Shown here piece after piece: positions 1 to 16,552 of a stretch of DNA of 62,608 bases; the stretch's first letter is position 1, and every line of letters begins with the position of its first letter. The position numbers were made by a program, and so were the translations under genes. The stretch lies in contig NZAC01000037.1 of assembly GCA_002686085.1 (NCBI GenBank), forward strand, positions 1 to 62,608, given 5' to 3'. The DNA is from Roseibacillus sp. GTDB taxonomy: Bacteria; Verrucomicrobiota; Verrucomicrobiia; Verrucomicrobiales; Akkermansiaceae. The notes below the pieces were generated by a model. The model had not been told where the DNA came from, searched no databases, and saw only the letters and a list, made by a program, of their open reading frames with translations.

Positions 1-120
1 AGTGCCACCCCCACCGGTGGGGTGTGCGGGTGGAGCTGGGCCAGCAACTGCCCTGAATCCCCTACCCTGGACCGTGTGCAGGAGACGGGGTAAGGGGTGC
101 TGGAAACGTGAAGAATTAGT
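1..120. other. Unassigned foldable stretch at the window edge
   Basis: No convincing protein is seen here. Positions 9-22 form a perfect 14-base palindrome centred on ACCGGT. A nested helix can be drawn on the plus strand: CCAGCA at 41-46 pairs with TGCTGG at 98-103, and inside it CCCCTACCC at 59-67 pairs with GGGTAAGGGG at 88-97 with one bulged A. This could be the end of a structured RNA whose start lies outside the window, or a GC-rich intergenic sequence. I compared it from memory with RNase P, tmRNA, SRP, 6S and 5S RNA signatures and recognised none. Confidence 0.25.
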
Positions 121-129
121 CGCCCGTAA

Positions 130-153
130 GTGCCTACACTTGGTGCCTACACT
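130..153. repeat. Short direct repeat, 11-base unit twice
   Basis: The unit GTGCCTACACT occurs at 130-140 and 143-153, a period of 13 bases. It lies between the foldable edge region and the tRNA-Asn terminator. No function is evident. Confidence 0.5.
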
Positions 154-171
154 AGCCCTCTGCCACCAAAT

Positions 172-201
172 AAAAAACCCTCAACTGATTGAAGTTGAGG
201 G
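172..201 (-). terminator. Rho-independent terminator after tRNA-Asn
   Basis: CCCTCAACT at 178-186 and its complement near 192-201 form a strong stem with a loop of about five bases. Read on the minus strand it is followed at once by a run of six T. It starts nine bases past the CCA end of tRNA-Asn, so it most likely ends that transcript, perhaps together with the ATPase gene upstream. Confidence 0.8.
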
Positions 202-209
202 AGTTAAAG

Positions 210-284
210 TGGCTCCTGCGGTTGGATTCGAACCAACGACCTAGTGGTTAACAGCCACCCGCTCTACCGCTGAGCTACGCAGGA
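210..284 (-). tRNA. tRNA-Asn (anticodon GTT)
   Basis: The minus strand gives a complete cloverleaf: acceptor TCCTGCG pairing with CGCAGGA, D arm GCTC/GAGC, anticodon stem GGTGG/CCACT with loop CTGTTAA (anticodon GTT), and T arm GTTGG/CCAAC around TTCGAAT. The discriminator is G and the CCA tail is encoded in the DNA (210-212). A terminator follows immediately. The gene lies 86 bases past the stop of the P-loop ATPase gene on the same strand and may be read through from it. Confidence 0.95.
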
Positions 285-370
285 CCGTGAAAGCGGTGGG
301 GAAGATGATCCGAGAGCACCACACGGAGCAAGTAAATTCTCCACCTTCCGAAGGATCTGTAGAGTTCGAT

Positions 371-2815
371 TTAGTGATTATCCTGCCTCTCACGCAGGAG
401 CTTGAGCATCCTCTCCACCTCTTCTCTATCTGAAGCTGCTGGATCAACAGATCTCGGTTGCGCTCTTGCCTCTGTTTTCTTGGACTGTGGAAGGGGTCTG
501 GGAGGTGTCCCAACCGCAACAAAGGGAGATGGAGTCTCGGCGACACCCTGCTCTGTAGTATCAGATGTATCTCCCGGCCACCACTCCTTTGCAGGCTCAC
601 CCGTACTCGATTCCGAGTCAGGCACTCTGACCGCAGGGTTTTCGGTCTGTGATGGAGAAGACTCAATGGGATCTTTTGTTGGTGGAGCAACCTGAGAAAA
701 ATCACCTAACGAGCCGATTTCATGAGGGCTATAGGGTTGCTTTTCAGGAGAGTCCACTCGTGGAGCTGACTCGGAGTGCACCGCAGAGAACGGTGATTCC
801 GCAGGGTCCATAGCCTGAGGGTCAAATGGGCTCGACATCGGCACGGGATCCGTGGGAGCGGAAGGCTCTGGCTCCGGCAGGGAGTCAGGCAGCTCCTGAT
901 TTTTATTGGAATAGTCAGGGGCACTAAAGTCCAGTTCGGAACTACTCCTTCCATGCCCACCGAAGGTGCCCCCTTCTGACTCTCTCCTGTCCGGAGTCAA
1001 TGAGTCTTCAAGATGATTCGACTGCACGGGCTTTTCCGAAAGGGGCTTAAGCTTGGAAAACTCAATTTCTCCCCCGGTGGGATCCTGCTCATCTTGTATA
1101 AATGGAGAGAGTGTTTGCCCCTCATGGTCACTAGTGGCAGCGTTCTCCGGCAAAGACCCCTCGTCACTTCCGAGATTGGATGACTGATATCCATGATCGG
1201 CGCTCCTTGAGCGAAATGGCCGTGGTGGACGCTCCTCATCCTGATGCCTCGCAGGTGGCCTCTGGTCGCCTTGAGCTTCGTCATCAGAAAAATTTGCAGG
1301 CCCTGATGGATAACCTTCATCTATATCCTTATGGTCAAAAGGAACTGGAAAGGCCGGGGAAGGACCATCTGTGGCCGGCATCACAACCTCGAAGGGGCTT
1401 GAGGTCCCTATTGAGTGCTCCACGCTGGCTGACGGCAGATCTTCGACGGATGCTGACGCTCTCTCGACGGATTCCAAGCCCAATGCCTCCGGGGTGAGGA
1501 CAGGGACATCCTCGTCTAAGACCTTCTCACGGGAAACCTCTTGACCGGTGTAACTTGCTTGCCGAAGCCCCTCAGCTTGAACGTCTTCGAGGGAGTTCGC
1601 TCCAAATTCGGGAAGTTCCGAACGTGTATCATTCGCTGAATCCGGCACACTATTCTCAACCTCTTTGACCCCTTTCGCCTCCAGCATGGGATGTTCCAGC
1701 TTAGCCCAGGCCGAGGAGGCCAGCTCTACAATGCGTCTGGGATACAGAGGATCACCTGATGAGCTCCAGTCGATCTTTCCAAAAACCTCAGCGGCCCGCT
1801 CTCCTGCCCTTGCGCTGATAATAGCTTCAACCTCCTCGGCGGTGAGGGCCTCAAGGGTGATCCGGTAAGCCAGCAAGCGATCGGCGAGACCCCCGGGCAG
1901 GTTAGGCAGGAATGAAGATGCCCAAATATCATCATTAACACTAAGGATAGCAATCGCTCCTGGGCAGGACTGCGAAATGTTTGAAAGAAAAGAAGCAAGA
2001 GCCAGGGCATCCTGTGGAGAGGTTGAGAGACCCTCAGTATCGTCAACAATCAGAACGGGACACACAACCGTACTCATCAGGCTGAGGAGACCGTGCAGCC
2101 TCTCCTCTGCGGTGGAGGAAGATTGATTCTGCAGATCGTTACGGAAAATGGTTTCGAAAAGCAGCCGAGCGCGCTCCACATTATCAGGTGGCGTTGTCGC
2201 AAATCGAAAAAGGAGCTCAACCCAGTAAGAGGCTTCCCGAAGGCTTGCTCCACTGATACGCGCAAGCTCAGCGGCAAGTCTGGGACCAAGAACCTCAAAA
2301 TTTGTTTTTGTCCAATGGGCCGTAACGGCCCCGTCATAGTGAAAGTCAAAAGTCTGGGCTGGGTTATCCCGAAGACTCTCAAGAGCGCTTTCCCGATCTT
2401 GGCAGGGCACCTCCCCGGATTCAACGAGAGGTTCCAGCCCTAGGGCGAGGACCTCCCGGGCAAGCAAATCTAACTGTGTAAGGGTCGAGCTCTCAGAAAC
2501 TACTTCACACAGAGATTGGAGAACATACTCCAAGACGTGAGCCGCATCGGTAGTCCGGCCGTTCGTAAGTTGGATACGCACGAAACGGTGACTTTCTCCA
2601 AGGTCGGCGGCAATCGACTGCAGGAGAGTAGTTTTGCCATAACCAGCTCGTGGAGCCTGCAACAATATCACCCGCCCCTCTCCCTGCGAGCCTTCATGAA
2701 GGTAAGCCTTGAGAAGATCTCGAGCGGATTGATTGATCGAAATAACAAGATCTTGGGGGTCCCGTCCGAATACCTCGAAACGGCGGCTAAACGGGTCAGA
2801 AACACTCATCGGCAT
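371..2815 (-). CDS. P-loop ATPase with long acidic disordered C-terminal tail
   Basis: This 814-residue protein starts at ATG with two close alternatives. Residues 1-380 form an AAA/STAND-like ATPase: a Walker A segment PRAGYGKT ends near residue 62, a Walker B VLIVDD lies at 254-259, and a sensor-like Asn sits in SVNDD near 294. The first position of the P-loop is Pro rather than the usual Gly or Ala. From about residue 385 to the end the sequence is rich in Ser, Pro, Glu and Asp with no fold visible, then ends in a short basic and helical stretch (EEVERMLKLLRERQ) that could be a docking helix. It is last in a minus-strand series after the secretin and the AsmA-like gene, 176 bases downstream of the latter. 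A role as a motor or regulator for that envelope system is inference; no specific family is recognised. Confidence 0.8.
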   Translation of the reverse strand: MPMSVSDPFSRRFEVFGRDPQDLVISINQSARDLLKAYLHEGSQGEGRVILLQAPRAGYGKTTLLQSIAADLGESHRFVRIQLTNGRTTDAAHVLEYVLQSLCEVVSESSTLTQLDLLAREVLALGLEPLVESGEVPCQDRESALESLRDNPAQTFDFHYDGAVTAHWTKTNFEVLGPRLAAELARISGASLREASYWVELLFRFATTPPDNVERARLLFETIFRNDLQNQSSSTAEERLHGLLSLMSTVVCPVLIVDDTEGLSTSPQDALALASFLSNISQSCPGAIAILSVNDDIWASSFLPNLPGGLADRLLAYRITLEALTAEEVEAIISARAGERAAEVFGKIDWSSSGDPLYPRRIVELASSAWAKLEHPMLEAKGVKEVENSVPDSANDTRSELPEFGANSLEDVQAEGLRQASYTGQEVSREKVLDEDVPVLTPEALGLESVERASASVEDLPSASVEHSIGTSSPFEVVMPATDGPSPAFPVPFDHKDIDEGYPSGPANFSDDEAQGDQRPPARHQDEERPPRPFRSRSADHGYQSSNLGSDEGSLPENAATSDHEGQTLSPFIQDEQDPTGGEIEFSKLKPLSEKPVQSNHLEDSLTPDRRESEGGTFGGHGRSSSELDFSAPDYSNKNQELPDSLPEPEPSAPTDPVPMSSPFDPQAMDPAESPFSAVHSESAPRVDSPEKQPYSPHEIGSLGDFSQVAPPTKDPIESSPSQTENPAVRVPDSESSTGEPAKEWWPGDTSDTTEQGVAETPSPFVAVGTPPRPLPQSKKTEARAQPRSVDPAASDREEVERMLKLLRERQDNH

Positions 2816-2933
2816 GGAAGCGAAACGATCGCCCCTTAGGCTAGTGATACCTGTTCATTCCAGACAAGCTTGAATCCTGTGAACAAGATGGGATTCAAAT
2901 GTGAAAAAACTGTCAGTAACAGGACCACCAATC

Positions 2934-2953
2934 AAAAGGCCGATACGCCTTTT
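2934..2953 (-). terminator. Probable terminator after the AsmA-like gene
   Basis: AAAAGGC at 2934-2940 and GCCTTTT at 2947-2953 form a seven-base stem with a six-base loop. It lies 39 bases past the stop of the AsmA-like gene. The T tract is inside the stem rather than after it, so termination may be partial and some transcription may continue into the ATPase gene. Confidence 0.45.
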
Positions 2954-2991
2954 CTTTATGATTTACTGTCCGACTGGTTGACCCTCGTTTT

Positions 2992-4443
2992 TTAAGGGGC
3001 GTCAGACTCAATTGGCGAAGCTTGCAGTCTTTTCAGGAAATCATCATTGGGCTGATCCAGAGAGCCACTCAACTGGAGGTCGGTCCAGCAGTATCCCTGA
3101 GCGGGCTGGCTGAAGGAAGAGTATCGCGGTTGATTCAGAGTCTTCATCATCAGCACCTCTGGAACCCCCAGCCGCAACTCACCACTCATCTCCTCGTCTT
3201 CAACCACAATCGTCCCGGTTAACACCATGTGGGACCGAATCTCGTAGCGCAGATTCTCTATGGTGAGTTGATTAAGATTTCGCCGCAACACTCCTGAAAT
3301 AGTGCCGCCCTCGGGCCTCGAATAATGCTCCTTCCTGAGTATTGAGGCGAGGCCCCCTAAAAACCTGAAGCCCTCGATGGAGCTATCCTTTCCCGTGAAG
3401 GCCACTTCCACCTGAGCGTTCATCTCCCTACCAGAATTGACAGATATGGCACCGCTTGAAGAGTCCACACGTGCGCTCAGCATTCTTCCGAGACTTTTCT
3501 CACCCAACAATTGCTCCAGTGGAAACTCGGTAAGGTCCACATCAAAACTCGACACGCCCTCTTCGGCTATCGGCTGGACTCCTTTAAATACCGCCTTCCC
3601 TCCCTCTTCACTTTGCGTTCGAAGGGAAACAAGATGGAAACCGCCATCATGCCACTCTCCAAGACCATTTTGAACCTTCAGTTCGCACCAGTTTCCAAAG
3701 CGAAGAAATCCTCCGCTGAGCTGGAACTGCATTCCCCCGTTCCTCGAACTATCTCGTAACACGAGCTCAGAATCTCGAATCTGCAACGCCGCTTCCCTGG
3801 AATCCATCCCATATTCAAGATCGAACTGGTTGCACCGGTAGTGCCCAAATCTGAAAAAGTCCTCGGGCTCAACTGTCCGAATCACACTCGGGCTTCCACT
3901 GACTGGCCCCAGGCGCATTGTGGCGGTACGCGCATACATCTCAGCCCCTTCAAGTCGGGAACGGAAAAAACTGGAAAGATTAAGACGGGTTTCCAAGTCC
4001 GTAAGGGTCAGGGCGCGAGTCATGCCTCCACGGGGCCACGTCATCTCCACCGATTGAACCCGAGTTTTGATGGGATTGACCGAGAGGTCATTGATTCTTA
4101 CGGCCGCACCAGAAGCAGAACTTACGCTTGCCGCAATATCTTCCCGAAAACCCCTGCTATTGAAACGCGCTAGCATCGTCACGATGGAGATTCCACCAAC
4201 CACGACCAGTAAGATCAGGGCTATCACAACGTAGAGCCCATATTTTTTCCCGTGGACTGGCTTGGCCTTTCGCTTGCTTTGTTGCGTGCGCCGTTTCCTT
4301 TTCCGCACTCTGGTCACTTGGGAACCGTCAGCGCGGGTGACCAATTCCTTATCGCGAGTAGCCGACTGCGTTTGCTTCCCCTTCTTGAGCTTCTCCATCA
4401 TTTCCTCGACGGAGTAACTACGGGGTTCGGAGTCCTTTGCCAT
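2992..4443 (-). CDS. AsmA-like single-pass inner-membrane protein
   Basis: The protein has 483 residues. A very basic cytosolic head (residues about 45-72, rich in Lys and Arg) is followed by one strong membrane helix (about 72-95) and a large periplasmic region of alternating beta strands, of the type seen in AsmA/DUF748-like proteins thought to bridge the envelope. Phrases such as 'IRDSELVLRDSS' and 'GEWHDGGFHLVSL' fit the repeated strand pattern but no catalytic motif is visible. It starts 26 bases after the secretin stop on the same strand, so the two are probably co-transcribed. Its layout, and loosely its sequence just after the membrane helix, resembles the gene at 54534-56156. The family call is moderate; the cargo or partner is unknown. 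Confidence 0.7.
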   Translation of the reverse strand: MAKDSEPRSYSVEEMMEKLKKGKQTQSATRDKELVTRADGSQVTRVRKRKRRTQQSKRKAKPVHGKKYGLYVVIALILLVVVGGISIVTMLARFNSRGFREDIAASVSSASGAAVRINDLSVNPIKTRVQSVEMTWPRGGMTRALTLTDLETRLNLSSFFRSRLEGAEMYARTATMRLGPVSGSPSVIRTVEPEDFFRFGHYRCNQFDLEYGMDSREAALQIRDSELVLRDSSRNGGMQFQLSGGFLRFGNWCELKVQNGLGEWHDGGFHLVSLRTQSEEGGKAVFKGVQPIAEEGVSSFDVDLTEFPLEQLLGEKSLGRMLSARVDSSSGAISVNSGREMNAQVEVAFTGKDSSIEGFRFLGGLASILRKEHYSRPEGGTISGVLRRNLNQLTIENLRYEIRSHMVLTGTIVVEDEEMSGELRLGVPEVLMMKTLNQPRYSSFSQPAQGYCWTDLQLSGSLDQPNDDFLKRLQASPIESDAP

Positions 4444-4469
4444 TACTCTGAGCCGAGCTCGTTGATTGC

Positions 4470-6989
4470 CTAGCGGCTGACGGGTTGCCCGGACGGGTCC
4501 TCAAGACGGACGCTCACCAAAATAATGTAAGCGTCTTTGATTGAAGTTTGCGCCTGTGACTTAAAATAGCGACCGATTAGGGGGATCCGGCTCAGAATCG
4601 GCGTCTCATCTTCAACGCTGATCTGGGAACTTCTGAGCAAGCCGCCAAGCACTACCGTTTCGCCCTGATAGATGGATAGTGTTGAATTTCCCCGGATCGT
4701 GCTGAATACGGGCATAAGGATGGCATTTTCGGTGACCACCCCGAAGGAGCCCCCGCTAAGTGCACCCCCGGTGGGATCGAAGACCGAGCTACTGCTTCCG
4801 CCCAAAATAGGTGTTCCATAGTTAATGAAGCCGTCAAAGTCCCGTATCTCAGGTTTGATGGAGACCTCAATCACACCATCGTCACCCAGTTGAGGCAGAA
4901 CCTCAAGCATGCAGCCGAGATTAGTGGTCTCGAACGCCGTCGGATGCGCTGGTGTCACAGGAGTGACGCCAGCTGCCTGCTGCACGAAACCACCATCTGC
5001 ATCCAGTCCAATATTGCCACCGACCTGATTGGGGAGTTCTGGCGGCTCGTATTCCGTCGGGTAGATAAACTCGCGAACCGACTCGATTGTCGCGCTTTGA
5101 CCTGAGCGCGTTATGACCGTCTTCTTAGTCATTAAATCGAGTCCCTTATGCTGACCGACACCACGCATCAGCATTCCAACGGTATTGTTATTGGCAATAC
5201 CGGTTGCAAAGATCGCTCCCGGGGCCCTCAACTGGGAGTTCTCGACTGATGTCCGGGCAATGGCGCCATCAATACTATTCGTGTCGGTGGCAAGATTGCC
5301 GCTCCGATTGCCCGCGGTAATCGGCCGAAATGGAGCTGGTCCAGCAGGAGTCCCATTACCGACCGTCCCTCCACCAAGAAAGAGCTCGTTAGTGACCTCC
5401 TGAGCGCCATCAAGCAACCAGTCGAATCCGAGTTCTTCCAGTCGCTGTTCGGTGGAGCGGATGATCCGGGCCTCCACGATGATCATCACAGGTTCCGCGT
5501 CCACAATAGAGTCCACGATCACCTCAACCAACGCCATATTAGTCTCGGTATTCTTGACCGAGAGAATCGAAGATTGTGTACGATAGAGGGCACTAGCGCC
5601 GGGGGGGAAATTGACCCCTTTCTGCTTCAGGTAATCTTGGGCACTCAACCGCTTCACAAGACCCCTCGCGGGAGCATCGTTCACCGCAAACGGATCGCCA
5701 TCAGCACCCCCTGCCTCCCCGCCCAGATCTTCTCTGCTGAGAAAGTCTGGAGGCATCTTGAATTGCCTGAAAACTAACTCATCACTGATAACCCCCGCAG
5801 GGCGAATCACTACCGCATATTCATCAATGCGGGCCTGGGTTTGAGTCGCTTCCAGAATCAAATCCAGCACCTTGCGCATTGGGACATTTCGCAACTTTAG
5901 GCTGAAGGTTGTCGTCTCGATTGATCTGGCCCTTACCTCATCTGCGTTGCCGAGCTGAATCACAAACGCAATACCCTTTCGAGAAGCATCCAACTCATTG
6001 ACATCAAGGACGGCTGCTTGCTGCCTCAGGAAATCGATGGCCTCTCCCAACCGAACCTGATCCATATCCACCACAGGGATGATCATCGAAGCGAGCTTTT
6101 CCGATGCCGACGCACCGAAGCGAGCTCCGTCCCTCAAAGCCCCGAAGTCCGCATCTGCCAGTCCGCTTACTCTCTTCGGTATGGGGGATACCCAAGCCTC
6201 ACCCACATCGCTGAACAATTTGGCCCGAGCCGCATCACGAGCAGTCTCCGAATAGTCTACTTTCTGCGCATGTACCCTTTCCATGCCTCGCCTTGCTGCA
6301 GAATTGTGAGGATCAATCGTCAGGACCTGCCCATAAACAACCAGTGCTCGATCAAACTGTCCAAGCTCCACAAACCCCTCAGCCTCGGAAAGGTAACGCC
6401 GAACCTCTTCGACTTTCTTTGCGTGCTCTGGCGTCAGGGCAGGATTGTTTCGAATTGGATCTCCCAGACGGGCCATCATCTCCATCGCGCCTGCGTGTTT
6501 TGGAGCCACTCCGGGCGCCAGCACAGCATCGAGCAACGCTGCGGCCTCAGGGTAGTCTCCAACCTTGGCAAGCTCCCGGGCACGCTCTACAGACGCCTGT
6601 GCAAACCGTTCTCGAGCAGCCGACTTGAGACCGGAAGTCGCTTCGCCTCCAGGAAACAAGTCAAATGCCGCTGCAAATTCGGTCACCGCGGTTGCGTAGT
6701 CCGCAAGCCTGTATGCCTTGTCTCCAGCCAAGAGCGCCTGCTGAGCTTGCTGGGTTTCCTTGGCCCGCCTCTCAAGCTCACGCTGGACGATGTCTGAGTC
6801 GTCTGCACGACAGGCCAAAGCCCCAAGTAGCAGAACCGAAAACATCGGCACTAAGGAAGAGAAAGAGCCCACGAGGCTGCGGTGGGGCCGAGGGGTAGAT
6901 TGGGGGGCGGGTGTGATGGGGAGGTTTCTACCGGAGGTTGCCCCTTCCGTCAGCACAAAAATCGGTGTGAAACTACCTATATTGGCCAT
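4470..6989 (-). CDS. TPR-containing secretin of GspD/PilQ type (Amuc_1098-like)
   Basis: The protein has 839 residues and would form the outer-membrane ring of a type IV pilus or type II secretion machine. A signal peptide ends at an AXA-type site (GALA, residues 56-59). Residues about 65-260 are helical TPR repeats that track the 'GDY..AAALLDAVL' and 'GQFDRALVVYGQVL' pattern. Then comes an STN/N0-like domain (about 300-400), an N1-like domain, and the secretin barrel with its typical end 'GETVVLGGLLRS' and 'PILSRIPLIGRYF'. The TPR-plus-secretin layout matches the Akkermansia secretin Amuc_1098. An alternative ATG at 6845 would leave only a short, uncharged signal sequence, so the longer start is kept. 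No PilM, N, O or P genes are adjacent; the ATPase and platform genes lie at 39-44 kb. Confidence 0.9.
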   Translation of the reverse strand: MANIGSFTPIFVLTEGATSGRNLPITPAPQSTPRPHRSLVGSFSSLVPMFSVLLLGALACRADDSDIVQRELERRAKETQQAQQALLAGDKAYRLADYATAVTEFAAAFDLFPGGEATSGLKSAARERFAQASVERARELAKVGDYPEAAALLDAVLAPGVAPKHAGAMEMMARLGDPIRNNPALTPEHAKKVEEVRRYLSEAEGFVELGQFDRALVVYGQVLTIDPHNSAARRGMERVHAQKVDYSETARDAARAKLFSDVGEAWVSPIPKRVSGLADADFGALRDGARFGASASEKLASMIIPVVDMDQVRLGEAIDFLRQQAAVLDVNELDASRKGIAFVIQLGNADEVRARSIETTTFSLKLRNVPMRKVLDLILEATQTQARIDEYAVVIRPAGVISDELVFRQFKMPPDFLSREDLGGEAGGADGDPFAVNDAPARGLVKRLSAQDYLKQKGVNFPPGASALYRTQSSILSVKNTETNMALVEVIVDSIVDAEPVMIIVEARIIRSTEQRLEELGFDWLLDGAQEVTNELFLGGGTVGNGTPAGPAPFRPITAGNRSGNLATDTNSIDGAIARTSVENSQLRAPGAIFATGIANNNTVGMLMRGVGQHKGLDLMTKKTVITRSGQSATIESVREFIYPTEYEPPELPNQVGGNIGLDADGGFVQQAAGVTPVTPAHPTAFETTNLGCMLEVLPQLGDDGVIEVSIKPEIRDFDGFINYGTPILGGSSSSVFDPTGGALSGGSFGVVTENAILMPVFSTIRGNSTLSIYQGETVVLGGLLRSSQISVEDETPILSRIPLIGRYFKSQAQTSIKDAYIILVSVRLEDPSGQPVSR

Positions 6990-7003
6990 AAAAAGCCATA
7001 GGT

Positions 7004-7153
7004 CTACCCCTTGAAGACCAGCTTAGCCCCATAAGGCGAATAACGGCGCCTACCCCAGGCCCGGCGCCGATCCAGAAGATCAAATTGACGCTGTAGACGT
7101 TTCAGGCGGAGCTTGAGAAACTGATTACGCAGGTGCCATGTCAATGTGTTCAT
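7004..7153 (-). CDS. Candidate small basic protein, 49 residues
   Basis: An ATG at 7153 opens a 49-codon frame ending in TAG at 7004, 14 bases before the secretin start. The product begins MNTLTWHLRNQFLKLRLK, is dominated by Arg and Lys, and ends YSPYGAKLVFKG. There are no low-complexity runs or rare-looking codons. The ATG falls about seven bases after a good -10 box, so the message could be leaderless, like several other genes here that lack a ribosome site. I recognise no family. It may be a real small protein co-expressed with the secretin or only an open leader. Confidence 0.4.
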   Translation of the reverse strand: MNTLTWHLRNQFLKLRLKRLQRQFDLLDRRRAWGRRRYSPYGAKLVFKG

Positions 7154-7159
7154 GCGAAC

Positions 7160-7187
7160 ACCATACGTGGCATCGACCCCGTGTCAA
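7160..7187 (-). promoter_or_regulatory. Sigma-70-like promoter for the secretin operon
   Basis: On the minus strand a perfect TTGACA (7187-7182) is followed after 16 bases by TATGGT (7165-7160), four of six matches to TATAAT. It sits just past the parC stop at 7202. The expected start of transcription is at about 7153, exactly the ATG of the small basic ORF, with the secretin gene 164 bases further on. Confidence 0.55.
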
Positions 7188-7201
7188 CCCCCCATCGGCA
7201 A

Positions 7202-9151
7202 TTATGCCCTCACAACCCGGTCTACAGCATGCTTGGTAAGAATGTTTCCCTTGGCTCCACGGCCCTTTACCCCAATTTCCCCGAATTGAAATTCTCTGGA
7301 GACATTCCTAAGTCTAAGGGCAGGCTTAAGATGCACGACAACGGTATTGGCATCACTTTCGCCCAGATCATCATGGGCTGCAAAGTAAAGAACACGAGTC
7401 CCAGCGGTCCCCTTCCCTAACTCATAAATCTTGTCCCTAGTAACGCCTCCAACGCGGAAGCGCTTCGCCATCACCGGCCCATCACGCCCTTCCCGGTAAA
7501 TCATCGAATAAATTTTCTCCTCGGCCTTCCGAAAAATGGCGACATGAACAGGGCGTTTTCCAACAAAGGCCTTATCGGCGACCTTGAGAACTCTCATTTT
7601 GGCATCTTGGGAAATCGCAATGAGATCATCGAGTCGAGAGCACTTCTCAACTGAGCGCTCCTTTTTCAGTGAGATCCCGGCAAATCCATTCTTCTCGTCG
7701 ACATAGAGAGTCTCGGTGGCTGCTACTACCTGGCTGCGGTCGACTCGCTCAAATTCACCCTCATCCGTCCGCGGCTCCTTCCCGCTCCCATATTTCTTTC
7801 TAAGATTCTCGTAGTAGCGAATAGCATAACGAGTAAGTCCTCGAAGGTTCTTCTCAGTCTCCTCGATGGCATTTTCCAATCCCTTGATTTCCTCGTCAGC
7901 CCGGAAACTGTCATACTTGGAAATCCTTTTGATCCGTATCTCGGTCAGACGAACAATATCATCCTTGGTAACCGCACGCCGAAAGCGCTTCGCATAGGGT
8001 TTGAGCCCTCGCTCAATAGCATCGATCACGGCCTCCCATGTCTCACATTCCTCGATGTCCCGGTAAATCCTCTTCTCAATGAAGATCTTCTCCAGAGAAC
8101 TGAAATGCCATTTGTCCTCCAATTCTTCCAATTTGATCTGAAGCTCCTGCTTCAGGAGATCCTTCGTCTGGAATGCGGATCGTTTCAGAATTTCACTGAC
8201 GCCAAGGAATTGCGGTTTGCCGTCAGCGATGACGCAGGAATTCGGTGAAATACTGGTCTCACAATCGGTAAACGCAAAGAGCCCATCGCGAACCGACTCT
8301 GGGTCGCTACCGGCTGAAAGGTGAATGAGAATATCCGCCTCATCAGCGGTATTATCCTCAATTCGGGATATCTTGATTTTTCCCTTTTCTTGCGCGGCCA
8401 CAATCGAGGCCTGCAGAGAGGTGGTGGTCGTCCCCCAAGGGATTTCAATGATTTTAAGGAGGTTCCGTTTCACTACCTCGATTTTTGCCCGAACCCGTAC
8501 CCGCCCCCCGCGGAGGCCATCATTGTACTCACTAGCATCCATCAGCCCGCCTGTCGGAAAATCAGGAACTATTTCCACCTTCTGCTTCCGCAGGGCTCGG
8601 ATACACTGCTCGATCAGCTCGTTAAAATTGTGGGGCAGAATCTTACAGGCAAGGCCAACCGCGATACCCTCACCTCCGTGCGCCAATAAGAGGGGAAACT
8701 TCATTGGAAGGGTGACCGGCTCCCTGTTACGGCCATCGTAACTCTGTGCCCATTCCGTTGTCTTTGGATTAAAAGCAACCTCCAAGGCAAATGGAGTAAG
8801 CCGCGCCTCTATATAGCGCCCAGCGGCAGAAGGATCTCCAGTCAGCACATTTCCCCAGTTTCCCTGAGTATCGATGAGAAGGTCCTTCTGTCCCATCCCT
8901 ACCAACGCGTCCTCAATCGCCGTGTTGCCGTGCGGGTGATATTTCATTGTATCACCAACAATGTTAGCGACCTTGTTATAACGCCCGTCCTCCATTTGAC
9001 GCATGGCGTGAAGGATCCGTCGCTGCACCGGCTTGAGGCCGTCACCTAGGTGCGGAACAGCCCGCTCCATGATGACGTAACTAGCGTAATCAAGGAAGTA
9101 ATCGGAATACATGTTTCCGAGGCTTCCGTGCTCCTTTCCCTTCAAGCTCAT
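7202..9151 (-). CDS. parC: DNA topoisomerase IV subunit A (short form)
   Basis: This is the DNA-cleaving subunit of a type IIA topoisomerase, acting with ParE to decatenate chromosomes. The 649-residue protein carries the quinolone-pocket helix (VGDTMKYHPHGNTAIED, about 65-81) and the catalytic Tyr at about 113 in AGRYIEARL. A coiled-coil gate follows, then a C-terminal region from about residue 470 that is only partly recognisable as pinwheel blades and is short compared with the roughly 750-residue E. coli ParC. A GAGG ribosome site lies six bases before the ATG. parE lies 195 bases upstream on the same strand. The sequence style matches Bacteroidetes and Verrucomicrobia ParC rather than GyrA. 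Confidence 0.93.
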   Translation of the reverse strand: MSLKGKEHGSLGNMYSDYFLDYASYVIMERAVPHLGDGLKPVQRRILHAMRQMEDGRYNKVANIVGDTMKYHPHGNTAIEDALVGMGQKDLLIDTQGNWGNVLTGDPSAAGRYIEARLTPFALEVAFNPKTTEWAQSYDGRNREPVTLPMKFPLLLAHGGEGIAVGLACKILPHNFNELIEQCIRALRKQKVEIVPDFPTGGLMDASEYNDGLRGGRVRVRAKIEVVKRNLLKIIEIPWGTTTTSLQASIVAAQEKGKIKISRIEDNTADEADILIHLSAGSDPESVRDGLFAFTDCETSISPNSCVIADGKPQFLGVSEILKRSAFQTKDLLKQELQIKLEELEDKWHFSSLEKIFIEKRIYRDIEECETWEAVIDAIERGLKPYAKRFRRAVTKDDIVRLTEIRIKRISKYDSFRADEEIKGLENAIEETEKNLRGLTRYAIRYYENLRKKYGSGKEPRTDEGEFERVDRSQVVAATETLYVDEKNGFAGISLKKERSVEKCSRLDDLIAISQDAKMRVLKVADKAFVGKRPVHVAIFRKAEEKIYSMIYREGRDGPVMAKRFRVGGVTRDKIYELGKGTAGTRVLYFAAHDDLGESDANTVVVHLKPALRLRNVSREFQFGEIGVKGRGAKGNILTKHAVDRVVRA

Positions 9152-9346
9152 CCCTTACCTCTGAAGACGCGAATTTAAGATGTCCTTACTATGCTTGGCA
9201 AGGTTTGATGCGGTGTGACGCCTTTAATTTGGCGGAACGCACCCGGCTGTCCCCGGCGCCAAATACCGACTCCTGCACTCTTCGCGCTCATTACGTTCGC
9301 TGCGTAACTTTATTTGCATCCGTTTAACCTGCAAACCCCTCCACTC

Positions 9347-11209
9347 TCACGCAGCGGTCATGTCGCTCTCGCGATCAACCCCTTCCCGCAGGTTATTGAT
9401 AATGTATTCCTGCCGGTCAGGGGTGTTTTTTCCCATGTAAAAGGTAAGCATCTCGCTGAGCCCCTTCCCCTCCTCCATTAACACAGGGTCCAGGCGGATA
9501 TCCGGGCCGATCATATGTTTAAACTCGTGAGAAGAGATTTCCCCGAGACCTTTAAATCGGGTAATTTCCGACCCTTTTCCCAAAGCTTTCAGGGCGGCCT
9601 CCTTCTCCTCATCATCAAAGCAATAGTCTGTTCTCTTTTTGGTTCTCACCCGAAAGAGAGGAGTCTGGAGAATGAACAGGTGCCCCTCCCTGATTAGCTC
9701 AGGGAAAAACTGGAGAAAAAACGTCAGTAGCAACAGCCTGATATGCATGCCATCAACGTCCGCGTCAGTAGCCAAAACCACCCGGTTATAGCGAAGACCA
9801 TCAATATTTTCTTCAATTCCAAGAGCAGCCTGTAGGAGCGCAAATTCCTCGTTTTCGTAAACAACCTTTCGACTCAGGCCGAAAGAGTTCAAGGGCTTTC
9901 CTCGCAGAGAAAAGACCGCCTGAGTTTCTGCATCGCGACACGAGGTGATGGATCCGCTGGCGCTATCACCCTCAGTAATGAAAATCGTACTGGCTTTCCT
10001 CAACTTGTGCTTGGTGTTCCAATGGACGCGACAATCCCTCAGCTTCTTGTTGTGGAGCTTTGTCTGCTTGGCTCGATCCCGAGCCAGCTTTTTCACTCCC
10101 TTCAGCTCCTTGCGCTCTCTCTCAGACGCGATAATCCTTTTCTGAATCGCATCCGCAGTCTCGGGATGTTTGTGCAGGTAGTTATCCAATTGCTCCCGCA
10201 GGAAATTACCAACATAGGTCCGGATGGTTTCTCCTTCCGGTTTCATCGCACTGCTGCCCAGCTTCGTTTTTGTCTGACTCTCGAAAACCGGCTCTTCAAC
10301 CCGAAGCGACACTGCCGCTTCTAGACCTGCTCGGATATCAGCCGGGTCGTATTGTTTCTTATAAAACTCCCGTAAAACCTTTACGATCGCTTCCCGAAAG
10401 GCACCGAGATGCGTGCCACCCTGAGTGGTATGCTGCCCGTTGACGAAGGAGTAGTATTCCTCGCTACTCGACGGGGTATGAACGAAGGCAACATCAATAT
10501 CGCGACCAGAGAGACCGATGGGCTCATAGAGCGGCGCTTCATCCATCTCCTCTTTCAGAAGATCCAGGAGGCCGTTTTTGGAGCGAAACTTCTGCTTATT
10601 AAAGACCAAGCTTAATCCTGGATTCAGGTAGGCATAGTAGCGACACATCCGCTCAACGATTGCCTCTTTAAATTTTGTCCGGGAGGGAAAGATCTCACGA
10701 TCAATCTCGAACGCCAGCCGGGTCCCAGACTTGGTCTTGGAAGCCGCACGGGGCCGCTTCATTTCCTCGGTAACTTCACCCCGACTAAACTCAATGGCCT
10801 TCGTCTTTCCCTCGCGCCAGGCCTGAATTTCAAAGAATTCACTGAGAGCATTCACGGCCTTGATCCCAACCCCGTTTAAACCTACCGCCTTTTTGAACGC
10901 CTCGCTGTCATACTTGGCACCAGTATTGATCTTGGCCGCGCAATCCATCAGCTTACCGAGTGGGATTCCTCTGCCATAATCCCTCACTTCTACCCGCCCT
11001 TCGTCGTCGATCTCGATCTTGATTTCCCGCCCGTGCCCCATCACAAACTCATCGACCGCGTTGTCGATCACCTCCTTTAGAAGAAGATAGATTCCATCAT
11101 CCTGGACCGCTCCGTCCCCAAGCTTGCCGATATACATCCCCGGCCGTAAACGGATGTGCTCGCGCCAGTTGAGAGTCTTGATATCCTCTTCAGTGTAACT
11201 TGCCGACAT
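9347..11209 (-). CDS. parE: DNA topoisomerase IV subunit B
   Basis: The ATPase subunit of topoisomerase IV, 620 residues. The GHKL ATP site is intact: [11 protein letters not shown] supplies the catalytic Glu and the Mg-binding Asn, DYGRGIP the nucleotide-binding Asp, and [14 protein letters not shown] the ATP lid. The TOPRIM domain has EGDSASG and [12 protein letters not shown], the metal-binding acidic residues. The protein ends shortly after the TOPRIM/tail region, as in other ParE. It precedes parC on the same strand; the 195-base gap between them may hold a secondary promoter. No Shine-Dalgarno sequence is evident before its ATG. Confidence 0.95.
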
Positions 11210-11221
11210 ACTTGGTTACTT

Positions 11222-11251
11222 AATATTTCTAAACTAATGAAGCGAGGTCAA
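11222..11251 (-). promoter_or_regulatory. Possible parE promoter
   Basis: On the minus strand TTGACC (11251-11246) is followed after 18 bases by AATATT (11227-11222), about 12 bases before the parE ATG. The -35 box is five of six, the -10 box four of six. This is a weak prediction from the pattern alone. Confidence 0.25.
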
Positions 11252-11329
11252 AGAGCAGCCGGAAACACGGTCGTATACACATTCTGGCAGGACCCGGCCC
11301 TCATAAGGGCTGATTCTGGGGCAAGACTC

Positions 11330-13870
11330 TCAGGGTTTCCTGATCCTATAGTATTGCGCAGTCTCATCCGCGATAAATAGATCAGGAATGACAAAGCGAT
11401 GCCGCCCTGGAGAGACCTCAATACCGGAGTCGGTAGTAAGGAGCTCAAATGGGAACCATGTGGACGACCTACCAAGATCGAGACTGACATCGAAACAGTA
11501 GAGATCTCCCGGAGTGAGTCCCTCTACCTCAACGAGGACTTCAAGATTTTCCCGGTCCACATCAAAGTCGGTTATTCTGATAAACTGAATCGCGACGGCG
11601 CCATCGAAAGTATTTCCATCAACAGTAACGCCAGGTGAAAAGAGAACCCCGTCCGCACCGGACGCCTGTGAGTGCGCCACAAATGCCCCACTGCCATCCG
11701 GAGACCGGGACACGGACTCATCGAGAACCGACCCATCGTATTCAAACTCAAGAAGAGTACTTCCGCCTCCGGGGGTCTTCAGCAAAATGGTGTCTCCGCT
11801 ATTGTTAAGGCCGAGGAGCCCACTACTTGCAGTCTGCACCAGAGAGCCCCCGAATCCGCCGACCGGCGATCCACCTCCAAAAACGACAATCGCTCTCCCA
11901 GCGGCCAGCAGCGTACCAACAGGAAAGACATGCCGCATTCCCACGCCATCGTGGATCTCATAGTCACTAAGATCAAAGGCGTCCTCAGATACGTTCAGTA
12001 ACTCGATGAATTCGTCCTGCGAGGTATCCAGTGTGCCATCACGATTAGCGTCCCCTTCTGGATTTGGTGGATCCGAAAGGAACTCGTTGATCACAAGATC
12101 GCCGAACGGACCATCGCCATCGTCCTCCACCTCAAAGGTCGCACTGGCGGTCGTGTATCCGGGAGCCACAGCCCGCAGCTCAACTATCTGAGTCCCGTCC
12201 TCCGCTATATCATCCACCGCGTTGAGAGTGATCGTGAGGGAGCTCTCGTCGACCAGAAAGGTTCCCCGCGCACCCAGATCAGAAAGCGCCTCTGTCTCAT
12301 CGGTAACCACGATCACGACGTCAAGGGGCACACTGAGATCCCCTGTCCTTCGAAGAAGAGCGCTGATGCTCCCTCCATTCTCATTCATGGCTCCGGCGCT
12401 CAGACTAAAGGAAAGCTCTCCCAGAGGCGGACAGAAGTCGCTCCCGTCACTACGGGTTCCCGGAGAGAAAAGTCGACCGTCTCCAATACCGCCATGCAGG
12501 GTGAAACCGTCTGATATCTCCGGGTCTCGAACGAGAGATTGATCATTTCCTCCCTCACTCCCGTAGTTCACTGAGGCGACGAGCTCACCCTGAGCATCAT
12601 AGACACTCACAGTATCCCCTGCGTTATTCAGGCCAAGTCTGATGCTACTCACCGTCTGAAAGATGGCAGACCCCCCGAGGTTATCAACGGACCCTCCGCC
12701 AAAAACGACGATGGCGCAACCAGAAGGCACGACCGTACCCGTTGGAAAAAGATGCCGTTCCTCACTACGATCCCGCAAAGACCAGCCGCTCATATCGAGA
12801 GGTGCACCGCTCTTGTTGACGATCTCGACAAACTCATCATCCGCACTATCGGTATCTCCATCTCCGTTTGCATCGCCCGGAGCACCGGAAGGTATGTCCG
12901 CAAGAATCTCCGTAATAGCGATCGGAGAAGTATCATTATCATCTGTCACAGTGAGTGAGACAGTCCCTGAAGAAAGCCCCGTCGCAGTCGCGGTGATGAC
13001 CACCTCCTGATCACCATCCTCAATCGTATCATTAACAGCATCAATAGCCCCAAGCAGGGTCACTGACGCTTGCCCCGCAAGGATCACCCCGGTCTCCGTG
13101 GCAATCATTGCTTCGGTGTCATCACCGGATGAAAGTGTCACCGTCAGATCCTCGAGGAGAGATCCCGTTCTGGTCACCGTCACATCGACCTGTGCAGCTC
13201 CACTATCTTCCCCGATGGTCGATGAGCTCAAGGAGAGACTGAGCGATTCCGAAGCCGAGTCACTGAAGCTCTGCAGATAAAACGGATCCCCAGCCTCGGC
13301 TTCATCGACTTCTTGATTGCTAGCGACGCCCCACACCTGCGGATAATCAAGCACGGTCGAACCGGCAAGAAGGTCGAACCCTACACCTTCACTAATACGA
13401 TAAAAACTCCTGTTTGCCCCCTCATTTCCCGCATCTGTAAACGAGAGCGCATCAACGATCGCCGCCGTATCTCCCAAGGCGCCGAGCGCCGTATCATAAA
13501 GCACCACGCTGTCATCGCCATTAAAGTTAGGAGTGCCATTTGTCGACACGTCTGCAACGGCATAGGCTGGCACGACGGCTCGAGTGTTCCCGAGAAGAAG
13601 AGAGCCGTTAGGAGGAATAGACAACCCATCGAGACTGTCGCTCCCTCCCGGACTTGCCCCGTCCTGCTTCCACGCCTCTGTCGCTGCATTGGCCCACCTC
13701 GTAAGAACAAACCCATCGAGGGAAATCGCGGTATCACTTGTATTGGAAAGCTCTAACCACTTATTAAAACTTGTCCCTTCGTAATACTGGGAAATCACAA
13801 CCTCCGCACGGGCTACGGGGACAAGCCCGGAGACGAGGCAGAGGACCAAGAGAAGGTTCCGATAGTTCAT
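11330..13870 (-). CDS. Secreted lamin-tail/Calx-beta multidomain protein
   Basis: The ATG at 13870 is chosen because it opens a clean signal peptide (MNYRNLLLVLCLVSG, ending VARA); the open frame extends 33 codons further upstream. The 846-residue product alternates three lamin-tail domains, each with the 'FVEI/FIEL..L..W/Y..RHLFP..GG' pattern, with two Calx-beta-like modules carrying 'GED' and 'VTVTRTG'. Two lamin-tail domains contain Asp-rich loops, GDANGDGDTDSADDEF and a related GDANRDGTLDTSQDEF, which look like dockerin or EF-type calcium sites. The last 90 residues resemble a small beta sandwich ending in the common 'YYRIRKP' tail. It is probably an extracellular calcium-stabilised adhesin or structural protein. 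It sits alone between the M15-like peptidase and parE, both on the same strand. Confidence 0.8.
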   Translation of the reverse strand: MNYRNLLLVLCLVSGLVPVARAEVVISQYYEGTSFNKWLELSNTSDTAISLDGFVLTRWANAATEAWKQDGASPGGSDSLDGLSIPPNGSLLLGNTRAVVPAYAVADVSTNGTPNFNGDDSVVLYDTALGALGDTAAIVDALSFTDAGNEGANRSFYRISEGVGFDLLAGSTVLDYPQVWGVASNQEVDEAEAGDPFYLQSFSDSASESLSLSLSSSTIGEDSGAAQVDVTVTRTGSLLEDLTVTLSSGDDTEAMIATETGVILAGQASVTLLGAIDAVNDTIEDGDQEVVITATATGLSSGTVSLTVTDDNDTSPIAITEILADIPSGAPGDANGDGDTDSADDEFVEIVNKSGAPLDMSGWSLRDRSEERHLFPTGTVVPSGCAIVVFGGGSVDNLGGSAIFQTVSSIRLGLNNAGDTVSVYDAQGELVASVNYGSEGGNDQSLVRDPEISDGFTLHGGIGDGRLFSPGTRSDGSDFCPPLGELSFSLSAGAMNENGGSISALLRRTGDLSVPLDVVIVVTDETEALSDLGARGTFLVDESSLTITLNAVDDIAEDGTQIVELRAVAPGYTTASATFEVEDDGDGPFGDLVINEFLSDPPNPEGDANRDGTLDTSQDEFIELLNVSEDAFDLSDYEIHDGVGMRHVFPVGTLLAAGRAIVVFGGGSPVGGFGGSLVQTASSGLLGLNNSGDTILLKTPGGGSTLLEFEYDGSVLDESVSRSPDGSGAFVAHSQASGADGVLFSPGVTVDGNTFDGAVAIQFIRITDFDVDRENLEVLVEVEGLTPGDLYCFDVSLDLGRSSTWFPFELLTTDSGIEVSPGRHRFVIPDLFIADETAQYYRIRKP

Positions 13871-14001
13871 GATGGAAAAAACTGAAACAGATTTAGTGCC
13901 GATTAACCACTTGGCGGCCGGCGAAGTCAAGGAACCCTCTGAGCCGAACCTTTCAGTTTTGCGAGACAATTAACAAGACTGCCAAACCGATCATCCAACC
14001 C

Positions 14002-14643
14002 TCACCAATCGACGTTGTAGCCCCTTGTGTCAACGTGCGTAAACCCGGTATACTGGCCCACGCCACCACGGAACTTTCCTTCTTCCCGAATGTTTCGGGC
14101 GGCCCTGGCGACCGCATAAGTCGAGGCATGGAACTGCAGATCGAGAGCTATATTATCCTTGTGGAGTGAGTTTGGCTTCGCACCCGGACAACGCGCATTA
14201 TAGGACGGGCTCCGGAAAGCTGAGGTGACCCCTTTGACGGAGGTAGACAATCTCACCGCGATCTCATCAGCGACCCTCAGTGTCTGACTCATTTGCCGCC
14301 AGCTTTCGCGTCCCGGCAATGCGTTCCAGACACTACCCTTCTTGCGTGCGTGCGACGTGATGATTTGCTGCACACTGATGTGCCTCAGCCTGAGGGCTGA
14401 AAGGTAGCGCCCATATGCGTGCAAAAGAGGACCTTGCCTCCGAACCCATTCGACAGGGAGCTCATTCACGTTCAAATCCGATTGCCCACTAAAAACTGAA
14501 ACCCCTTGCGTAACACCCGCAGAGGCGAACATACCACCCGCAGTCAAAAGGGAAGCCCGCAGGAACCCTCGCCTCCCGCAGGATCCCGTCCCGACACCAC
14601 CATCCAACGGCAAGTGATTTTGGGACGAATAGCCTTTCTGCAT
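14002..14643 (-). CDS. Tat-exported M15/YcbK-like peptidase
   Basis: The ATG at 14643 is preferred over a TTG at 14706; it gives 213 residues. A twin-arginine signal GRRGFLRASLL is followed by a hydrophobic stretch. The C-terminal half has the M15 metal-site pattern: FRSPSYNARCP, then SLHKDNIALDLQF, then FTHVDTRG, supplying two His and one Asp as zinc ligands. This matches the YcbK/DUF882 group of murein-processing enzymes. A similar Tat-exported YcbK-like layout is common in Gram-negative bacteria. The substrate is most likely peptidoglycan, by analogy. The 298 bases upstream, up to the NhaC start, form a divergent AT-rich promoter region with no other gene seen. Confidence 0.8.
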   Translation of the reverse strand: MQKGYSSQNHLPLDGGVGTGSCGRRGFLRASLLTAGGMFASAGVTQGVSVFSGQSDLNVNELPVEWVRRQGPLLHAYGRYLSALRLRHISVQQIITSHARKKGSVWNALPGRESWRQMSQTLRVADEIAVRLSTSVKGVTSAFRSPSYNARCPGAKPNSLHKDNIALDLQFHASTYAVARAARNIREEGKFRGGVGQYTGFTHVDTRGYNVDW

Positions 14644-14941
14644 CTCTTCGAAATGTTTGCTAAATCTCCTGTTGTGGCCAGCGGAAAATGCTCTTGTCCG
14701 AACCAAGACAAACGTGTTTTAAACGGTAATTTAGGGAATACTCTGGATATTTTAATCGAAAATAAGGTTCTGTGAATAACTTAGGGATTCGAGCTGTTTT
14801 TCTAATAAAACTGCCACTGTGTGCTCCTTAGTTTTAAAATTATTAAAGCGGCACTTTTTTTATTCAGGAAACAAATTTCGGTCGGAATTGATATCCCTAG
14901 ATCCCTGCGAGATATGTTCTCACAAGCCTGCTGGTTCTCAG

Positions 14942-16552
14942 ATGGAAGCCACTAACAACAATAGCAAGAAACGTGCCCTCTGGGCGTGTGCTTCTTTGCT
15001 TCTTACACCCCTGGTACTGGCCCTTCCCGACAAGCTTCTTGCTCTATGGCCAGCTGCGGTTGCCCTTGGTCTCGTATTCGTTACCAAAAAGGCGCCGCTA
15101 GCTCTTGGCTCCGCCTGCCTTAGCGCCTTGCTTCTCATTGTGCTGACAGACCGGAATTCATTTTTTGAGTGGATTAGTCCCACGGGCGGCTTTCTCGCCA
15201 CCCTGACCAGCCCTTGGCATTTCTATGCTCTGCTATTTACTTTGCTCCTTGGGTCTCTTTCCGCAGTCATCGAAGCCTCGGGAGGCCTCTTTGCTCTTCT
15301 GCACGCGGGGGGAGAAATCACGGAAAAAACCCGGAGACGTTTTCTCAACAGTGTCCTTGGAATTGGTCTGCTCTGTTTCTTTGACGGCTTGGCCAATGCC
15401 CTCATGCTTGGACGGGTAGCCCGTCCTGTCGCGGACCGGTTACAAGTGCCTCGGGCTTATCTGGCCTACCTTGTTGACACAACCAGCTCTGCGGTCGCAT
15501 GCCTCGCCTTTCTCTCAACTTGGATAGTGACTCAGCTTGGTTACATCGCCACTCATAGTCCCCTCAACACGCCGCCCTATCTTCAGTTTCTCTCCTCGTT
15601 ACCGTATAACTATTACTGCCTCTTCGGCTTGGGACTCGCCATTCTCTCCGTTCGCTACCGCTGGTTGATTGGCCCCATGCGTCGCCGATTCGAAACCCTC
15701 GATACTCCGCCTGTAGATACGAATCGGATGCCGCCCGGTCGAACTTCTCCCATACGCGCATTAGTTCCGGTCCTCGTTCTCCTACTCAGCCTCCCTCTGA
15801 TTATTTTCTTCTCTTACACTCCCGAGAACGAAGTCTCCCTCTCACTGAGAATTCAAGAATCGCTCAATGCCCCCACGGTGCCGAGGGCCTTTGTCATATC
15901 GAGTTTTCTCGCCCTCATAGCCGCCTGCTTGACTTATCCTGCGACAAGGCGTGCAGAGACTCCTCGTGCCGCTTGGTCAGGTGCAAGACAGCTCATCCCC
16001 GCGCTTGGCATTCTTCTGCTGGCTTGGTTTCTCGGCAGTCTTTTCAAAGTTCTTGGTACTGCCGGCGTTCTCGCAAGCCTCTTGGGCTCATGGCTCCCTC
16101 TTGAAGCATTGGCCTCAGGGGTCTTCGTTCTCGGTTGCTTCATTTCCTTTATCTCGGGCACATCGTGGGGCACAATGGGCCTTCTTCTCCCTCTCGTCCT
16201 GCCACTTTGCGGCGCAATGGTGACTGCTCAAGGAGCTCCACCTGAAACACTTGAAGTCATTGTCCCAGCCGTTATTGGAGCGGTCTTCGGCGGAGCAGTC
16301 TTTGGAGACCACTGCAGCCCCTACAGTGATACGACTATCGTAAGTGCTCTCGCAAGTGGTGTCTCGACTCATGAGCACACAATCACGCAACTTCCCTACG
16401 CACTTATCGCGGCCGGCGCTACAGTAGTGCTCGGCTACGTCCCGGTTGCCCTTGGGCTGCCAGCGTGGATCGCACTCGTCACTGGACTAGCCTTACTTGC
16501 CGCGGTTGTAGCCGTTACAAGCCGAGGGTCACCTCCCATTAAAGGCCCTTAA
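14942..16552 (+). CDS. NhaC-family Na+/H+ antiporter
   Basis: The 536-residue protein from ATG 14942 has about a dozen membrane helices. The signature near the end, FGGAVFGDHCSPYSDTT, is characteristic of NhaC-type exchangers; a second marker is the SGTSWGTMG loop. An upstream in-frame ATG at 14819 would add a 41-residue hydrophilic head with no family support. It would exchange cytoplasmic Na+ for H+, which fits a marine or saline habitat. It is a single-gene unit, diverging from the M15-like peptidase and followed by tRNA-Arg. Confidence 0.9.
   Translation: MEATNNNSKKRALWACASLLLTPLVLALPDKLLALWPAAVALGLVFVTKKAPLALGSACLSALLLIVLTDRNSFFEWISPTGGFLATLTSPWHFYALLFTLLLGSLSAVIEASGGLFALLHAGGEITEKTRRRFLNSVLGIGLLCFFDGLANALMLGRVARPVADRLQVPRAYLAYLVDTTSSAVACLAFLSTWIVTQLGYIATHSPLNTPPYLQFLSSLPYNYYCLFGLGLAILSVRYRWLIGPMRRRFETLDTPPVDTNRMPPGRTSPIRALVPVLVLLLSLPLIIFFSYTPENEVSLSLRIQESLNAPTVPRAFVISSFLALIAACLTYPATRRAETPRAAWSGARQLIPALGILLLAWFLGSLFKVLGTAGVLASLLGSWLPLEALASGVFVLGCFISFISGTSWGTMGLLLPLVLPLCGAMVTAQGAPPETLEVIVPAVIGAVFGGAVFGDHCSPYSDTTIVSALASGVSTHEHTITQLPYALIAAGATVVLGYVPVALGLPAWIALVTGLALLAAVVAVTSRGSPPIKGP

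Follow-up and report, generated by a model that had tools for sequence, protein, structure and literature searches.

A conserved small basic protein gene with a probable LexA operator across its start codon in Roseibacillus sp., and its possible link to the replication clamp

The window, that is, the whole 62,608-nucleotide stretch of Roseibacillus sp. DNA that was analysed, carries on its minus strand a DNA gyrase/topoisomerase IV subunit B family gene (9347 to 11,209), the subunit A gene (7202 to 9151, NF009397), a small basic open reading frame and an Amuc_1098-family secretin gene, in that order. An earlier note had described the small frame and a promoter in front of it, and both are present. 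The frame has 49 codons, runs from an ATG at 7153 to a TAG at 7004 and encodes a product with a net charge of +12; it is preceded on the same strand by the -35 hexamer TTGACA (7187 to 7182), a 16-nt spacer and the -10 hexamer TATGGT (7165 to 7160). The A of the ATG lies 7 nt past the final base of the -10 hexamer, a distance that fits a leaderless start. Overlooked in the earlier note was the palindrome TGTTCGCATGAACA (7147 to 7160, strandless), a perfect match to TGTTC-N4-GAACA and a probable LexA (SOS) operator. It begins at the final T of the -10 hexamer, extends over +1 and the start codon and itself codes for residues 1 and 2, Met-Asn.

The promoter had been presented as the best of its kind in the window. 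It does have the only perfect TTGACA among the sites listed, but five further sites equal its score of 10/12, and by consensus scoring alone there was no excess over chance (9 sites in positions 1 to 15,000, with 8.3 in shuffled sequence). What raises it above chance is that relatives keep the frame, the start, the promoter and the 14-bp palindrome together; TTGAC is found in all 12 members of the window's genus that carry the gene.

The secretin gene is a neighbor outside the small-gene unit. The statement that the small frame ends 14 bases before it depends on a mechanically chosen ATG at 6989 and has to be revised. The secretin reading frame of 4470 to 6989 (minus strand) is over-extended at its 5' end, and within the extension lies a promoter-like sequence, CTGACG-N17-TAGAAA (6953 to 6925, minus strand), which is kept in the genus alignment and is probably the secretin's own promoter. 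The -35 element reads CTGAC[GT] in 12 of the 13 aligned genus members (GTGACG in G012) and the -10 element TAGAA[AC] in nine of them. A GTG at 6872 aligns with the ATG in G011, G013, G003 and G014 and falls near the position at which the NF042912 profile would begin by extrapolation. This GTG is probably the true start, placing the gene at 4470 to 6872, 131 nt past the small frame.

We searched 98 relatives and found the small frame at 71-82% identity in five genomes of the same genus and at lower identity elsewhere. A profile built from 20 members was then run against 260 genomes of the window's taxonomic family, giving 69 matches at E<=0.05, of which 47, in seven genera, were accepted. The other 22 were taken as chance; the two inspected, G272 and G269, lack a box within one mismatch. 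With G044, which was found through its box and not by the profile, there are 48 copies, the window's own included, and their frames of 43-72 amino acids have conserved ends. Among the 45 copies whose start codon lies in the box, 36 begin with ATG and nine with GTG, a mixture that is expected if this position is a start codon. The comparison of synonymous and nonsynonymous substitution proposed in the earlier note, made on six genomes of the window's clade (15 pairs, first three codons excluded), gave a pooled pN/pS of 0.22 in frame, against 1.21 and 2.93 when the reading frame was shifted either way. The retention of the frame in relatives and its low pN/pS bear out the proposal of a real, unrecognised and probably leaderless small protein gene, and indicate that the frame is under purifying selection and is a conserved protein gene. 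Within the window's genus the gene was found in 12 of 15 members. G002 retains the locus (L047) without the box and the small frame, and in front of its secretin promoter stands what looks like a decayed remainder of the tail; G007 and G010 gave no match to subunit A at 1e-100.

The gene appears to be confined to one taxonomic family, at least by this profile, since among 386 genomes of the order the only two hits outside the family (G087 and G395, E of about 0.002) belong to frames 297 and 245 amino acids long. Five members scanned against Pfam and NCBIfam (E<=1), PHROGs and PADLOC matched no model, and the profile found no sequence match in the PDB. In the portions of the literature available to our search, we found neither an SOS small protein with a tag of the kind described below nor one in the Verrucomicrobia LexA regulon.

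The sequence TGTTC-N4-GAACA, which we take to be the LexA (SOS) box of Verrucomicrobia, the motif of Erill et al. 2016, occurs exactly at seven places in the 3.95-Mb genome, while the reversed control occurs at none. Going by translations named by eye, the exact boxes stand at recA, imuA-imuB-dnaE2, radC and comM, and the remaining ones at the start of a trkA-like gene, upstream of a nameless gene and at the small gene. Relatives have the same box before radC, ssb, dinB, imuA and dnaE2 genes, again named by eye. LexA itself is encoded in the genome (L230, 204 amino acids), and its promoter contains TGTTCAAACAAACA, one base off the box, together with an extra TGTTC half-site at its ATG. Over the start codon of the small gene the box is exact in 36 of the 48 copies, has one mismatch in eight and two mismatches in one; 44 of 48, the window's copy included, thus combine a box of at most one mismatch with an ATG or GTG start at an unchanged position within it. 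The other three copies, from g12 (L158, L159 and L177), have no box at the start and carry instead, upstream of the ATG, a GAAC-N4-GTTC site, whose half-sites are ordered as in the LexA box of Gram-positive bacteria. This rearrangement, found in three genomes, is a natural case of operator evolution.

An operator in the promoter, its retention in relatives, and the presence in the genome of LexA and of further SOS genes with such a box give strong support to the placement of the small gene in a probable LexA regulon, with LexA expected to bind this site in the cell. The arrangement resembles the Verrucomicrobia LexA regulon in the exact operator over the -10 and +1 positions, the presence of LexA, and the boxed recA and imuA-imuB-dnaE2. 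As the small gene starts inside the probable LexA site, its product is probably made mainly under DNA damage.

Two further boxed genes deserve mention in their own right. The TrkA-like gene (L037, G000:C66:12981-12994; named by eye) has its ATG inside the exact box TGTTCATATGAACA in the same leaderless layout, which may reflect an SOS link to potassium transport or may be chance. The same DUF1501-like gene, also named by eye, has an exact box upstream in two genomes (L036, G000:C49:209191, and L218 in G009) and by that box would be an unexpected SOS target.

Members of the small protein family share a short basic N-terminal part and a conserved tail; the eight members for which the net charge was counted have values between +6 and +16. 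An AlphaFold2 model of the window's protein predicts one helix over residues 3-37, although the model is weak (mean pLDDT 71, pTM 0.34). Near the C terminus the pattern Q[LM]x[LF][PGL][FL] was found in 35 of 45 counted copies and in 0.1% of shuffles, a count that is partly conditioned on itself, since the filter used to pick frames demanded either the Q tag or L[VP]F[RK]. The forms were QLELPF, QMELPF, QLDLPF, QLQLPF, QLELPL, QMDLPL, QMDLLL, QLKLPF and QLEFGL, and the three g12 copies, which lie outside the 45, end by eye in QMDLPL or QLDLPL. Of the 12 copies in the window's genus, 10 lack the pattern, the window's own among them. In the window's own protein, whose tail is AKLVFKG, residues 44-47 (KLVF, codons at 7013 to 7024, minus strand) are the counterpart of the Q[LM]x[LF]PF found in most relatives outside the genus.

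Tails of this form resemble clamp-binding motifs. According to the available parts of two papers (PMC12309361, PMC3836487), that motif is in general QL[S/D]LF, and the QLSLPL of Hda binds the Escherichia coli clamp tightly. The small proteins are like Hda and the Y-family polymerases in having Q[LM]x[LF]PF at or near the C terminus in 35 of 45 copies, with DinB tails that look alike, and unlike them in that the tag sits on a protein of 43-72 amino acids and that the window's copy lacks the Q. In eight of the 10 gene-carrying genomes read, a DinB-like protein ends in a clamp-type tag: QLQFDL in the window's own genome, QLHFDL in G003, QLSLEL in G009, QLDLAL in G012, QLDLL in G022, QMSLL in G051, QLEMF in G038 and QMDLEL in G021. 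The exceptions are G059, which ends in QQELL, and G047, whose protein has no tag. The window's DinB retains the Q while its small protein lacks the pattern. ImuB lends no general support, since at 30 loci (L236-L265) the Q precedes the LPL column in only two (G022 and G034, both g9), so that likely clamp clients in these genomes do not generally carry a Q tag; LPL itself stands at the expected place of the clamp tag in 24 of the 30, and in the window's genus the Q position holds S or A. A role tied to ImuB/DnaE2 is also doubtful, since G021, G026 and G029 carry the small gene and gave no match to ImuB at the 1e-10 threshold. For the family at large, docking on the clamp is a well-founded prediction from the motif. 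Within the clade of the window the tag has diverged to LVF[RK], which makes clamp binding uncertain there; it may be lost or weak, or the tail may serve another purpose.

Starting from the frame and the selection on it, the box, the regulon and the conserved tail, each of which is read directly from sequence, we infer that LexA binds the site in the cell, that translation is leaderless, and that the product binds the clamp and affects replication. The reading that we favor, and think fairly likely though well short of certain, is that of a LexA-repressed, leaderless SOS gene whose 49-residue, basic, helical product docks, or had an ancestor that docked, on the replication clamp. In undamaged cells LexA would occupy TGTTCGCATGAACA and so cover both the transcription start and the start codon. 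DNA damage would activate RecA and lead to self-cleavage of LexA, and a transcript starting at or beside the AUG would then be translated directly, without a leader. In most relatives outside the window's genus the product would have a helix and, after it at the C terminus, a QLELPF-type tag that fits the binding motif for the beta clamp (DnaN). During the SOS response it might occupy or ride the clamp, with the basic helix near DNA while the tail contacts the clamp, and the replicase would be blocked or slowed, or polymerase exchange aided. Given how widespread the QLELPF-type tag is outside the genus, occupying or riding the clamp during SOS is probably the commonest, perhaps the ancestral, job of the family, and the tail of most of these relatives suggests an emergency regulator of DNA replication and not a part of a secretion system.

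A more specific proposal, which we put forward tentatively and which is slightly more apt to be wrong than right, is that these genes form a dedicated, stand-alone family of LexA-controlled leaderless miniproteins that plug the clamp during SOS, coupling damage to the clamp by means of one helix and a tag. Such a family would have arisen in this Verrucomicrobiota family, perhaps independently elsewhere (G080, below), and would resemble a UmuD-type checkpoint pared down to a single helix with its tag. The closest functional analogue may be SocB, a Caulobacter toxin that, in the portions available of PMC9690074 and PMC12795458, binds DnaN through the usual clamp motif. The likeness would lie in a protein that acts by filling the clamp pocket; the difference is that SocB belongs to a toxin-antitoxin pair and triggers SOS, whereas the small family instead carries a LexA box. 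SulA, YneA, SidA and TisB are small LexA-controlled SOS proteins, and the present family is like them in size and in its predicted LexA control. It differs from them in that none of the five scanned members matched a model of Pfam or NCBIfam at E<=1, a difference that presupposes models for those families in the two collections.

The two neighbors suggest other roles. In 44 of the 48 copies the subunit A gene ends directly upstream of the small gene, one of the exceptions (G255) being cut by the contig end, and the product is strongly basic with a predicted helix, so that one might imagine an SOS modulator of topoisomerase IV/gyrase or of the nucleoid, the basic helix lying on the neighboring enzyme or on DNA. 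We consider this improbable, as the small gene is set apart from the subunit A gene by its own promoter and LexA box, the copies in G025 and G044 lie some 6 kb from subunit A (parC), subunit A is present in 92 of 98 relatives while the small gene was accepted by the profile in 47 of 260 family genomes, and the QLELPF tail would be left unexplained. The earlier note had instead looked downstream and proposed that the frame serves the secretin or type IV pilus-like operon as an accessory protein or as a regulatory leader. The small frame does end 131 nt before the likely secretin start, and in 23 of the 48 copies a secretin turned up downstream, among them G025 and G044, where the small gene is not beside subunit A and still lies 0.4-0.6 kb before a secretin; a gene-order link to the secretin therefore remains and argues against full dismissal. 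On the other side, 10 gene-carrying genomes have no secretin in at least 1.5 kb of downstream sequence (in the remaining 15 without one, less was examined), and the comparison of linkage and promoters does not support the conserved linkage and shared transcription expected of a secretin accessory. Subunit A is the steadier neighbor, the SOS box belongs to the small gene, and the secretin has a separate conserved promoter, so that the small gene looks like an independent unit. The secretin proposal is thus very unlikely to hold.

A more serious competitor to docking on the clamp, though still an unlikely one, is an SOS small protein that acts elsewhere, as a division inhibitor of the SulA/YneA/SidA type or as a checkpoint peptide, its tail serving another partner. 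SidA and YneA are SOS division inhibitors, and both the LexA box and the small size of the gene product would suit such a function, as would the departure of the window's own tail from the consensus clamp tag. Division inhibitors are also common among SOS genes, to judge from the available part of PMC8565304. Against this, the net charge of +6 to +16 and the absence of an evident membrane segment by eye do not fit well, and the tails outside the genus match the C-terminal DinB tags of the same genomes. SidA and TisB are unlike the small protein in charge and membrane character. That the locus is instead a conserved DNA or RNA element with a fortuitous frame can hardly be credited: its short length is the sole point in favor, while pN/pS is 0.22 in frame and above 1 in both other frames, and frames of 43-72 amino acids with conserved ends recur in 48 genomes.

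Whatever its mode of action, the small gene adds a conserved member to the probable SOS response of Verrucomicrobiota and illustrates that the start codon of a leaderless gene can lie under a repressor site, the operator doubling as coding sequence. It may also offer a simple case of a damage-induced peptide acting on the replication clamp and, if the clamp step is true, would represent an SOS checkpoint effector of very small size.

Twenty order-level box sites were also fetched, and only one had, by eye, an open reading frame with a tag-like tail. At this site, L288 in G080 from a different family, two exact LexA boxes stand in tandem before a frame of 52 amino acids whose ATG lies in the second box and whose product ends in VEQQEFRF. 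It is possibly an independent analogue of the small gene.
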